DNA of 41,102 bases from Saprospiraceae bacterium (GCA_020631545.1 JAHDHB010000006.1:1-41102), one strand, 5' to 3'; positions 29,612 through 33,424 are shown, counted from the first letter of the stretch. Numbers and translations are program-made. Notes: generated by a model not told the origin, from the letters alone.

Positions 29612-30574
29612 TTACTTAATTCTACCCAAATGTAGAATACGACCACCTGTTTGGTTAACTGGGCTAACACTCTTTCCAATGACAATTCCATCTTCAGGCG
29701 CAAAATATTCCCTGATCAAGTTTCCAAAAACATCTCGAATGATGGCTATAGAATCGCCTTTTTTCACACGATCTGTGAGATTTACGGGGACAGTTAATAA
29801 ACCGCCGGTGTCCGTATAAATCCAGACGGAGCTTTTACAAATAACAGATTCTTCTTCTGGCTGTTCTATTTCATCCTCCGTCATTTCTAAATAGGAAAGC
29901 GTATTGTGAATACCCGATATGCCACTCCGTATCATTTTCTTTTGGAAGGTGTTAGGGTTACCAACCTCAAGTGTTATTGCAGGTATATCCAACTCATCTG
30001 CTGCACCTCGTAGAGTACCATCAGAAGGAGGATTGTGGACAATAATCTGAGCATTTTGCAATAATGCTAATTTTCTAGTAACGGGATGTTTCATATCTGC
30101 CCGTATATAGTAAGAGTTTATCCTACCAAAGCTAGCAGTATGTAAATCAAGTAAATAATCAAAGTGTTTTACGATGCGATTTACAAAACGGTAGGCATAA
30201 ACCTGACTGACGTTGCCATCTTTTTTTCCCGGCATGATGTGGTTGAGATCTACCCCATCGTTAAAACGTCTCTTTTTGCGTAAAAAAGCGGGAATATTGG
30301 CAATAGGAATGCCTATGATTACCCCTTTTAACTCCTTGACGTCGATTTCGTTGAATAAGCGTTGAATGACGGGTATGCCGTTGAGTTCGTTACCGTGTAC
30401 GGCTGCGGTAAGGCCAAGTATTGGGTAATCTTCCTTGCCCCTAGCGACCATTATGGGAACGCTAACGGGTTTACCTAGGCCGTCAGAAATAATTTTTAAC
30501 CAAAAACATCGAATACTTTGCTTTGGAGTATCCTCTAGGTTAAAGGTTTCTATGGTTGGAATATTTGTTTGCAT
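29612..30574 (-). CDS. AstE/AspA (succinylglutamate desuccinylase/aspartoacylase) family metallohydrolase
   Basis: AAVHGNELNG (HxxE), LLDLHTASFGR (third ligand), ITLEVGNPNTF (catalytic Glu), C-terminal beta-barrel-like domain. ATG at 30574 (MQTNIPTIETF). Confidence 0.88.
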   Translation of the reverse strand: MQTNIPTIETFNLEDTPKQSIRCFWLKIISDGLGKPVSVPIMVARGKEDYPILGLTAAVHGNELNGIPVIQRLFNEIDVKELKGVIIGIPIANIPAFLRKKRRFNDGVDLNHIMPGKKDGNVSQVYAYRFVNRIVKHFDYLLDLHTASFGRINSYYIRADMKHPVTRKLALLQNAQIIVHNPPSDGTLRGAADELDIPAITLEVGNPNTFQKKMIRSGISGIHNTLSYLEMTEDEIEQPEEESVICKSSVWIYTDTGGLLTVPVNLTDRVKKGDSIAIIRDVFGNLIREYFAPEDGIVIGKSVSPVNQTGGRILHLGRIK

Positions 30575-31571
30575 AATTCTGTTGTACTGCGTCAAAAATG
30601 AGGTCAATGGTTTGTTGGAGAACCGGACGTCCTGTTTGTTTTTCTGCTTGAGGAAAACCTCCAATACTTAAGGTATTGATTTCCGATAGAACACGTTTTC
30701 CATCGTCATCTACGAGGGTATCAGCACCGAAAATGAGGATACCTTCCTTCAGTAGTTTTGGGCTAATGGCTTGAATAATATCATTTTCTTCGGGAGTTAT
30801 TTCCGCAAGAATAGATTTTCCTCCTTGGGCTACATTGCACAACCAGGAGTCTGGGGCAGGCAACCGTAAAGAAGCCGCTAGTATCTGGCCATTTACCACA
30901 ATAATACGTTTATCTCCTTGACTAACATTTTTCAAAAACTTCATCGCTAAGAAGCCATCACGTTCTAACTCTTCTTGAATTCCTTGAAGGTAGGATAGAA
31001 TTGGATACTCTTGGTTTCCTACAAATAGTCGACCCTGAGTTATCTTGGCAATTCCTTTTCCTCCGTATTCTCTTAAGGGTTTGATTACTATTGGAAACTG
31101 CTTTGCATATTCAAGTATAGCTTCAATAGAATAACAAAGCTTCATAGGAGGACAATAGTCGGGAAAATTACTTAAAAATGCTTTCGTACTCGTATTTTTA
31201 ATGCCTAGCGGATGATTGATGATAATTTTGTCATTGGCCATATGGGCTAAGTAAGATAGAAACTCATCCGAAACGGGGCGAGGTAGACGTAGTAAAATAA
31301 TGTCATAGTCTGTTAGATCAACAGCCTGAAGATTTTCCAAAAACTGTTTTCCATCTTCTTGAAAAGAAAAAGACTCATCTGCTTGATGAACAAGTAGTTT
31401 TGTTGTGTTTAACGTTTGAAAAAAAGGTGCATTTTCTAAATTCCCACGACTAGCAATATCGATTTTATCGCATTGAGGATGGGAAGCAAGTTTAGCCATA
31501 AGGGCATACAGCGAATTTTCCTTGCTGTGGCGCCGATGGTCGGTTAGGGCTAAAAACGAATACTTTTTCAT
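30540..31571 (-). CDS. ATP-grasp ligase, GshB/RimK-like
   Basis: PIVIKPLREYGGKGIAKI, GDKRIIVVNGQILAASLRLPAPDSWLCNVAQGGKS, ADTLVDDDGKRVLSEINTLSIGGF. 3' end overlaps the AstE-like gene by 35 bp. Confidence 0.88.
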   Translation of the reverse strand: MKKYSFLALTDHRRHSKENSLYALMAKLASHPQCDKIDIASRGNLENAPFFQTLNTTKLLVHQADESFSFQEDGKQFLENLQAVDLTDYDIILLRLPRPVSDEFLSYLAHMANDKIIINHPLGIKNTSTKAFLSNFPDYCPPMKLCYSIEAILEYAKQFPIVIKPLREYGGKGIAKITQGRLFVGNQEYPILSYLQGIQEELERDGFLAMKFLKNVSQGDKRIIVVNGQILAASLRLPAPDSWLCNVAQGGKSILAEITPEENDIIQAISPKLLKEGILIFGADTLVDDDGKRVLSEINTLSIGGFPQAEKQTGRPVLQQTIDLIFDAVQQNYANKYSNHRNL

Positions 31572-31660
31572 ACCTTGGTACATTAAAGGAATGTGGAGTC
31601 CACTTTTAAAGCATTGATTAAAAATGGTTTGAACAATATTTTAAAGAATGGACTCAAAGG

Positions 31661-33103
31661 TTATAAAGAAATTTCATTTAGTAAAGTAGGGTCGTTGTTT
31701 AGCGATTTAAACAAGCGCATTTTGAATTTCCCCTTTGTATTGTAAAGGTTTTTGCACATTTTATCAATGGCAATCATGGAAAGAATCGTTTGAATGTAAG
31801 CTTCAATCAAGTCATCTAAGCCTAAACCGAGCTTATTAAAATCTCTTCTATCCATGAGCATTAGTCTATTGGCATCACTACTCCATTGATTATCATCCAA
31901 TTTTATGGATAAGTTCGTACCCAACATTTTCCAAGAATCACTACCGGAGGTGATTTCATCTGCAAGGGGAGAAGGGGTACGCCTAGAGTAAACACATAAG
32001 GGTTTGATGCCTTCTGGAGTAGAACTTACCATCATTCGTAGATCGGTAACGTAAGTTTCTCCCTTTGTGTTGGGGATGGTTCCAACATGATAAAACTTGC
32101 CTTTTTCACCACTTGAGCTCCAGTTATAGTTACCAATTAAGCTTTGTACGATAAAACGTTGATAGTCTATGTCTTGTTTCATAAAACTTTCCAGCTCCCG
32201 TTCGTTTATAATAGTAAAAACGCCTTGTCCTGCATTGCTGTAAGGAATTTTTATAACGGCTTGTCCGCCCATTTTATTTACCCAAAGCGGAATTTCTTCT
32301 TTACTGATGTCCCAGATAGTTTCTGGCGTAATGATTTGTAAGCCATGTTCCGCAAGTTCTGCATTGTAAAGATCATAAGCCTTTGCTGCAACCATTTTAT
32401 TTCTGCCTCCAGCCAAGCAAGCTACAATGGGATTGAGAATCTTAGTACGAGAGTGAAGAGGAAGACGATTCCAAGGTCGTTGAGTAACATATCGGAAAAC
32501 GGCACGAAGGCGATGCCATTGGCCATCTAGGTAGACATGTAAAAAGCTGTTTTCGAGTTTAATATGATCGTTGTCCTTTTCATTAAAAAATGGAACTAAG
32601 AGCACTTCTTCTTTAAAAACATCGGCAATGATAGCAGCATAACCGGATGTTTCCATATAGTTTTTGTCATATAGGACGGCGAGCCGACCCTCTATCTTAG
32701 CAACGCCCCTTTTGGGTTTCAAATAAGGCTTGAATGTGCGTTCTATTAGTAAACGATAAGAACCATCTTCCTTGTTATCATCCACGAGGGGCATGGATTT
32801 TTGGCCGGAAGGGCATGAGTTATTTTCAATAACAACCATTCGACGATTACCACCAGCAGAAGTAGAATTGATCAAATCTGCTCCACACCAAAGGAAATAT
32901 TTGCATTGATAACTTAGAATTTCTTCTAGTTTTTCTTTGGAAACCTTGGGATGTAAGTGACAATAACGACTGATTATTCGTTTTTTATCGAGATTGAGAA
33001 AAAAATTGACCATCGGGTGGATAGTAGCGTTTAACGCTTTGGGATACCAATGGTTTTCGCCAATGAAAGAGCCGGGTGTTACGACTTCTATTGTTTTTTT
33101 CAT
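31661..33103 (-). CDS. divergent ATP-grasp-like protein
   Basis: About 480 aa; MVVIENNSCPSGQKSMP, GGQAVIKIPYSNAGQGVFTI, TYVTDLRMMVSSTPEGIKPLCVYSRRTPSPL are consistent with an ATP-grasp core. Confidence 0.65.
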   Translation of the reverse strand: MKKTIEVVTPGSFIGENHWYPKALNATIHPMVNFFLNLDKKRIISRYCHLHPKVSKEKLEEILSYQCKYFLWCGADLINSTSAGGNRRMVVIENNSCPSGQKSMPLVDDNKEDGSYRLLIERTFKPYLKPKRGVAKIEGRLAVLYDKNYMETSGYAAIIADVFKEEVLLVPFFNEKDNDHIKLENSFLHVYLDGQWHRLRAVFRYVTQRPWNRLPLHSRTKILNPIVACLAGGRNKMVAAKAYDLYNAELAEHGLQIITPETIWDISKEEIPLWVNKMGGQAVIKIPYSNAGQGVFTIINERELESFMKQDIDYQRFIVQSLIGNYNWSSSGEKGKFYHVGTIPNTKGETYVTDLRMMVSSTPEGIKPLCVYSRRTPSPLADEITSGSDSWKMLGTNLSIKLDDNQWSSDANRLMLMDRRDFNKLGLGLDDLIEAYIQTILSMIAIDKMCKNLYNTKGKFKMRLFKSLNNDPTLLNEISL

Positions 33104-33158
33104 TTTCAATGGTTACGAGGTAAACGTAAAATTTGTTAAAAATAGGATCTAATGAAAA

Positions 33159-33267
33159 ATGGCCAGCTCCAGCAGATGAATTTAACGAAGAATATTCATT
33201 AAAAAAATGGTTGTCAAGCTTTTACTAGCTTTAAAATACAACGCAAAAATCTGCTGGAGCTGACCAT
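33159..33267. repeat. 19-bp inverted repeat in the divergent spacer between the ATP-grasp operon and mutL
   Basis: atggccagctccagcagat (33159-33177) and atctgctggagctgaccat (33249-33267), 18/19 complementary, 71-bp loop. Confidence 0.8.
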
Positions 33268-33424
33268 CTTTGTTCACTCCAAAATGCAAATAAAGATATG
33301 TACAAAAAGAGGACTTTTGCAACTTTTTTATTTTAATAAATCGATTTTTTTTGATTAAAAACTAGGGATTTCCTAAGAAATGGTTAATTCTTTCCATTTT
33401 ATTTAAGCTGCCAAGGCAAATTCC

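Follow-up and report, generated by a model that had tools for sequence, protein, structure and literature searches.

Genes at the locus

The DNA analyzed here, referred to as the window, is a stretch of 41,102 nucleotides from a Saprospiraceae bacterium (GCA_020631545.1 JAHDHB010000006.1:1-41102). Three genes, termed ATPG, GSHB and AstE, lie in succession on its minus strand. The genes and the features within them are as follows.

31661..33103, minus strand: ATPG, predicted 480-amino-acid ATP-grasp ligase with a glutathione-synthetase-like fold, core of the module (open reading frame, AlphaFold, Foldseek)
32801..32827, minus strand: ATPG E93-x-N95-S-C-P-S-G-Q101, candidate metal/ATP site (E93, N95, S96 and P98-M104 invariant in 49 sequences)
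32219..32251, minus strand: ATPG K285-x-P-Y-x-N-A-G-Q-G-V295, candidate phosphate-binding Lys and glycine-rich loop (K285, P287, Y288 and N290-V295 invariant)
30540..31583, minus strand: GSHB, GshB/RimK-like ATP-grasp ligase, accessory gene (Pfam GSH-S_ATP, PF02955, 9.6e-26)
30540..30574, minus strand: overlap of GSHB and AstE, 35 bp (sequence)
29612..30574, minus strand: AstE, AstE/AspA-family zinc amidohydrolase, core partner of ATPG (Pfam AstE_AspA_cat, PF24827, 9.7e-33; fold; conserved residues)
30239..30244, minus strand: AstE N111-H112, canonical Asn-Arg substrate-contact pair changed to Asn-His

All three minus-strand reading frames named in a preliminary description of the window were present, and the Pfam matches bear out its assignment of the second and third to a GshB/RimK-like ligase and an AstE/AspA-like hydrolase. 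For ATPG, we preferred the ATG at 33103 over the TTG at 33109 (open reading frame 31661-33109), which gives a protein of 480 amino acids. A longer reading frame for AstE, of 350 amino acids, opens at a TTG within GSHB; the alignments of relatives begin near the ATG, which sits 35 bp inside GSHB. The 35-bp overlap of the last two genes, also described previously, was found here and is common among relatives (44 of 55 GSHB-AstE pairs), as is overlap of ATPG with GSHB (39 of 50). The genes are co-directional at the relatives' loci, where overlaps are usual, and the overlap in the window likely reflects translational coupling.

Just upstream of ATPG, we observed a 23-nt inverted repeat (91%; 33155-33177 and 33249-33271), and the strand carrying it folds at -58.9 kcal/mol (z -6.3). 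Its 12-nt core had no second copy in the window, its 14-nt core was not found in the other loci compared, and no Rfam family matched an RNA element at this position. The repeat may be either a 5'-leader hairpin or a small repeat element. A search of phage and plasmid collections found no ATPG, nor did the protein have a PHROGs match, which gives no sign of a mobile, phage or plasmid origin; a search for anti-phage defence with PADLOC likewise returned no match.

ATPG resembles ATP-grasp ligases of the glutathione synthetase type

ATPG matched no Pfam family, and against NCBIfam it matched only rimK_fam, weakly (3e-4) and below the cut-off. Searching PDB sequences with ATPG or its profile returned nothing significant. 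We aligned 49 ATPG sequences, in which relatives from two phyla were 54-79% identical, and the AlphaFold model obtained with this alignment reached a pLDDT of 91.2 and a pTM of 0.92. Compared with the PDB using Foldseek, the model gave 52 matches at E<=0.001, and the matches listed were ATP-grasp superfamily proteins. The best were eukaryotic-type glutathione synthetases (human, potato and yeast), 3n6x, which is a putative glutathionylspermidine synthase, and fungal Cp1B, with E values of 4e-9 to 5e-8 and low TM-scores of approximately 0.4, indicating a match at the superfamily level. Cp1B, in turn, has homoglutathione synthetase among the folds nearest to it (PMC12568646). The predicted structure supports an ATP-grasp fold of the glutathione-synthetase type for ATPG, as the preliminary description had guessed for this protein, which it counted as 482 amino acids.

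The best structural matches belong to the circularly permuted glutathione-synthetase type and extend over approximately 450 columns. Proof of a circular permutation of ATPG at the sequence level was sought and set aside: hhalign of the ATPG profile against GSHB gave no significant similarity in any rotation. Judged by conservation, E93-x-N95 and K285...G292-x-G294 resemble the metal and phosphate sites of such ligases.

AstE is nearest in predicted fold to hydrolases of diamino acid and arginine amides

The zinc and catalytic residues of AstE (H60, E63, H145 and E203) were kept in 98-100 of 100 relatives, in agreement with the HxxE, distal His and catalytic Glu recognized previously. The AlphaFold model (pLDDT 90) had DoeB as its closest Foldseek match (TM 0.84); it also matched CphZ, a cyanophycin dipeptide hydrolase, with an E value of 2.9e-20, lower in the list than DoeB-type enzymes. 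AstE scored far below all named NCBIfam equivalog cut-offs, namely those of succinylglutamate desuccinylase, DoeB and aspartoacylase. The modeled fold places AstE nearest to hydrolases whose substrates are amides of a diamino acid (DoeB) or of arginine (CphZ).

ATPG and AstE form the conserved pair

A scan of approximately 85,000 species genomes with ATPG returned 51 loci in Saprospiraceae, Tenacibaculum, Aureivirga, Aquimarina and Bacteriovoracia/Bdellovibrionales. In whole-genome searches, ATPG was found in 119 of 199 sampled genomes of the window's family, in 9 of 396 across its phylum and in 47 of 369 in the phylum of Bacteriovoracia. AstE lay within 7 kb of ATPG at 54 of 63 loci (thinned at 80% identity) and directly after it in Tenacibaculum, Membranihabitans and Bacteriovoracia; some ATPG loci had no AstE nearby. 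The 96 non-redundant loci comprised 28 with ATPG-AstE, 21 with ATPG-GSHB-AstE and nine with ATPG alone, and nearly all the remaining loci had module genes together with polyamine genes.

The ATPG-AstE pair thus occurs in both Bacteroidota and Bdellovibrionota and, judging from gene neighborhoods, is the conserved core. The preliminary description had proposed an orphan module of two ATP-grasp proteins plus a hydrolase. An ATP-grasp-like fold and co-occurrence of the genes in many genomes support such a module; its unit, however, is ATPG with AstE, to which GSHB was added in one lineage. Our literature search found no description of the family or the module; a 2009 survey of amidoligase neighborhoods (Iyer et al.) lay outside that search and may mention the family.

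Many Bacteriovoracia loci (L026-L043) have an NhaR-like LysR regulator immediately upstream of ATPG, and MscS channels recur within several kb of ATPG, at 15 loci overall. These neighbors hint at a link to ionic or osmotic stress.

Relatives frequently link ATPG to polyamine genes

Module genes apart, the families recurring most near ATPG were an arginine-decarboxylase-like enzyme (ADC), agmatinase (SpeB), the deoxyhypusine-synthase-like SpeY and c9, followed by MscS. ADC lay within 10 kb of ATPG at 34 of 99 loci, and ADC, agmatinase, SpeY and c9 were neighbors at 34 (about a third), 30, 28 and 23 of 96 loci, respectively. ADC, SpeB and SpeY belong to an operon leading from arginine to polyamines. 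By random expectation, a given gene would lie within 10 kb in approximately 0.4% of 5-Mb genomes, a figure that is an estimate and is to be read with loci that are not phylogenetically independent. The bacterial deoxyhypusine synthase homologue SpeY makes homospermidine (PMC9992855), and a Thermus enzyme is reported to couple agmatine en route to homospermidine (PMC10981699).

The linkage survives approximately a dozen gene orders, mostly co-directional. ATPG sits inside the polyamine operon in Aquimarina; Aureivirga has two copies, one within the polyamine operon and one alone (L207:7980-9401, L023:8001-9434); two further families also show the linkage (L145, L146); and one genome (G548; L090, L097) carries two whole copies of an ATPG-GSHB-AstE-c9-ADC-SpeB-DHS operon. 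Five polyamine operons from ATPG-negative Saprospiraceae were without GSHB and AstE. Tenacibaculum and Bacteriovoracia showed no polyamine linkage of ATPG. ADC and SpeY of the window's genome lie on a different contig (C186) from the ATPG module, and the link is visible only from relatives, not from the window alone. On these gene neighborhoods, the link to polyamine genes appears frequent in relatives and not obligatory.

Two neighbors were considered as obligate partners of ATPG and rejected. SpeY was missing altogether from eight ATPG-positive genomes of the window's family, and c9 was absent from the window's own genome. The latter, a small acidic-tailed protein (L004:8652-9077 and its relatives, with shorter forms at L206:10783-11064 and L207:10381-10629), belongs to no Pfam or NCBIfam family and tracks the ADC-SpeB-SpeY operon.

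An operon that starts with an arginine-decarboxylase-like enzyme would also suit the storage of arginine. ATPG would then make an arginine isopeptide, such as aspartyl- or citryl-arginine, and AstE would free arginine for the linked decarboxylase pathway in a cyanophycin-like manner. The match of AstE to CphZ and the few loci in which ADC alone lies near ATPG agree with such a store. However, DoeB-type enzymes match AstE better than CphZ does, the linkage of ATPG to SpeB and SpeY is almost as frequent as that to ADC, and a gene resembling cyanophycin synthetase does not recur next to ATPG. We consider arginine storage unlikely.

The recurrence of the small, acidic-tailed c9 near module genes also raises the modification of a protein or peptide, in which the ATP-grasp enzymes would tag a protein, as RimK tags ribosomal protein S6, and AstE would remove the tag. 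RimK-type ATP-grasp enzymes do modify proteins, and a RimK and AstE pair is encoded elsewhere in the window's genome. Nevertheless, c9 is missing from that genome and accompanies the polyamine operon also when ATPG is not next to it, the RimK cut-offs were reached by neither ATPG nor GSHB, and no other candidate acceptor recurs near ATPG. Protein modification is quite improbable on this evidence. The reading we prefer is an amide of an arginine-derived amine that ATPG would form and AstE would cut.

GSHB is an accessory enzyme of one lineage

GSHB was confined to a subset of ATPG loci, in Saprospiraceae-type genomes, where it lies between ATPG and AstE. Genomes without a linked GSHB mostly had no orthologue anywhere and only RimK-like matches of 25-34%; two genomes (G396 and G489) had a GSHB orthologue elsewhere, unlinked to ATPG, and no AstE was seen in those of their contigs that were examined. 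By this distribution, GSHB is a third enzyme, added to the ATPG-AstE core in the lineage of Saprospiraceae-type bacteria.

In NCBIfam, GSHB came closest to glutathione synthase but reached under half of the curated score and stayed below the equivalog cut-offs (PRK05246, 131.5 vs 272; TIGR01380, 123.2 vs 299). The preliminary description had noted that no glutamate-cysteine ligase lies nearby. This holds, and the PF04262 (GshA/GshF type) enzyme is absent genome-wide; two PF04107 (GCS2) proteins are encoded on other contigs. The same description had allowed that GSHB might simply make glutathione with a distant partner, which the two GCS2 proteins would permit. Three observations nonetheless make ordinary glutathione synthesis unlikely: the core pair also occurs without GSHB, the scores of GSHB fall under the cut-offs and PF04262 is absent. 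A wider version, in which GSHB makes glutathione or an analogue from the precursor of a distant GCS2 enzyme and ATPG then conjugates the product, draws on the sequence closeness of GSHB to GshB and on the GCS2 proteins, but it is very unlikely given the same scores, the same missing enzyme and several ATPG-AstE lineages without GSHB, in which the core is independent of it.

Two other contigs of the same genome carry further ligase-like genes. Contig C472 (L154, 1632-4371) carries an orphan GCS2-family ligase of 483 amino acids followed by a 414-amino-acid protein without a Pfam match, possibly another amide-forming pair. Contig C526 (L162, 271-3201) carries three successive ATP-grasp-like genes, two RimK-like and one like D-Ala-D-Ala ligase, of which the first two overlap.

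Residue 112 of AstE changes with the presence of GSHB

In human ASPA, Asn70-Arg71 are substrate contacts, and Arg71 also lines the entry channel (PMC10998430). By motif and spacing, this pair corresponds to Asn111 and residue 112 of AstE. In the window, Asn111 is retained and the canonical Arg112 is replaced by His; the Asn-Arg pair is a specificity feature and is not needed for family membership.

We compared residue 112 between loci with and without GSHB. Every one of the 62 GSHB-carrying loci had His at this position and none of the 36 others did; in these, the pair was Asn-Arg (33), Asn-Gln (2) or Asn-Ala (1). Residue 112 was the sole column of 320 in AstE that fully separated the two groups, and three of the next-best columns fell in the neighboring loop 99-105, where the GSHB group is rich in Lys/Arg. 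On the ATPG tree, GSHB presence and residue 112 each show four changes, and the four independent pairs are all concordant, which is suggestive but does not reach significance (sign test p 0.125). Because H112 tracks GSHB and the two switch together in four independent comparisons, GSHB and AstE probably share their target molecule.

A separate pair on contig C174 of the window's genome (L161, 3248-5839) consists of a paralogous RimK-like ligase and an AstE-like hydrolase; this hydrolase keeps Asn-Arg.

Proposed function of the module

We propose that ATPG is an ATP-grasp ligase that would couple a carboxylate with an amine, most likely one derived from arginine (agmatine, putrescine or homospermidine), at the expense of ATP. 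AstE, as a zinc amidohydrolase, would cleave this amide again, so that the two enzymes would make and unmake a conjugate, like glutathionylspermidine synthetase/amidase or the cyanophycin enzymes. In Saprospiraceae-type bacteria, including the window's genome, GSHB would be a second, later ligase acting on the same molecule. It would probably consume the carboxylate that Arg112 of AstE recognizes in the two-gene form, hence His112 in AstE. We hold this whole scheme, reversible amide formation on an arginine-derived amine plus GSHB as the second ligase, with a little less than even confidence.

More tentatively, Bacteroidota and Bdellovibrionota may share a new class of conjugates of polyamines or agmatine. 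An unrecognized ATP-grasp family would make these conjugates and an AstE-type amidase dedicated to them would cleave them; the arrival of the third ligase would have re-tuned this amidase by an Arg-to-His change.

If true, the proposal would assign a function to a widespread family of proteins that is unnamed in the libraries searched. It predicts a polyamine- or arginine-derived amide, which can be tested, and a single AstE residue, 112, that reports on its chemistry. To our knowledge, polyamine-peptide conjugates are known mainly as glutathionylspermidine and trypanothione; therefore, a second bacterial route to polyamine conjugates would be of interest to work on stress and redox physiology.

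Comparison with known systems

ATP-grasp ligases paired with hydrolases are already known, and the glutathionylspermidine and cyanophycin enzymes are functional analogues of the proposed module. In glutathionylspermidine synthetase/amidase of E. coli and kinetoplastids, an ATP-grasp enzyme amidates with a polyamine and an amidase reverses the reaction, the same make-and-unmake logic as proposed for ATPG and AstE. However, ATPG and AstE are two separate genes and the hydrolase is an AstE-type zinc enzyme instead of a cysteine amidase; neither a GSP_synth Pfam match nor a cysteine amidase domain was found in the module. The cyanophycin system (CphA ligase and CphZ dipeptide hydrolase) similarly has an ATP-dependent arginine amide undone by a hydrolase of the AstE fold, whereas the module is without a CphA-like gene and its ligase is of another type.

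Eukaryotic-type glutathione synthetase and fungal Cp1B of the E-64 pathway have the closest solved folds to ATPG, which differs in being approximately 12% identical, bacterial and placed in another gene context. DoeB/EutE, an N-acetyl-diaminobutyrate deacetylase, shares the zinc site of AstE as well as its closest fold; however, AstE is 22% identical, scores 74 bits against the equivalog cut-off of 402.7 and has His in place of the Arg of Asn-Arg, and no ectoine genes lie near it. Finally, RimK/RimB and RimK-AstE pairs, one of the latter being that on contig C174, also place an ATP-grasp ligase beside a hydrolase, but the AstE copies of RimK-AstE pairs keep Asn-Arg and are only 25-30% identical to the AstE of the module.
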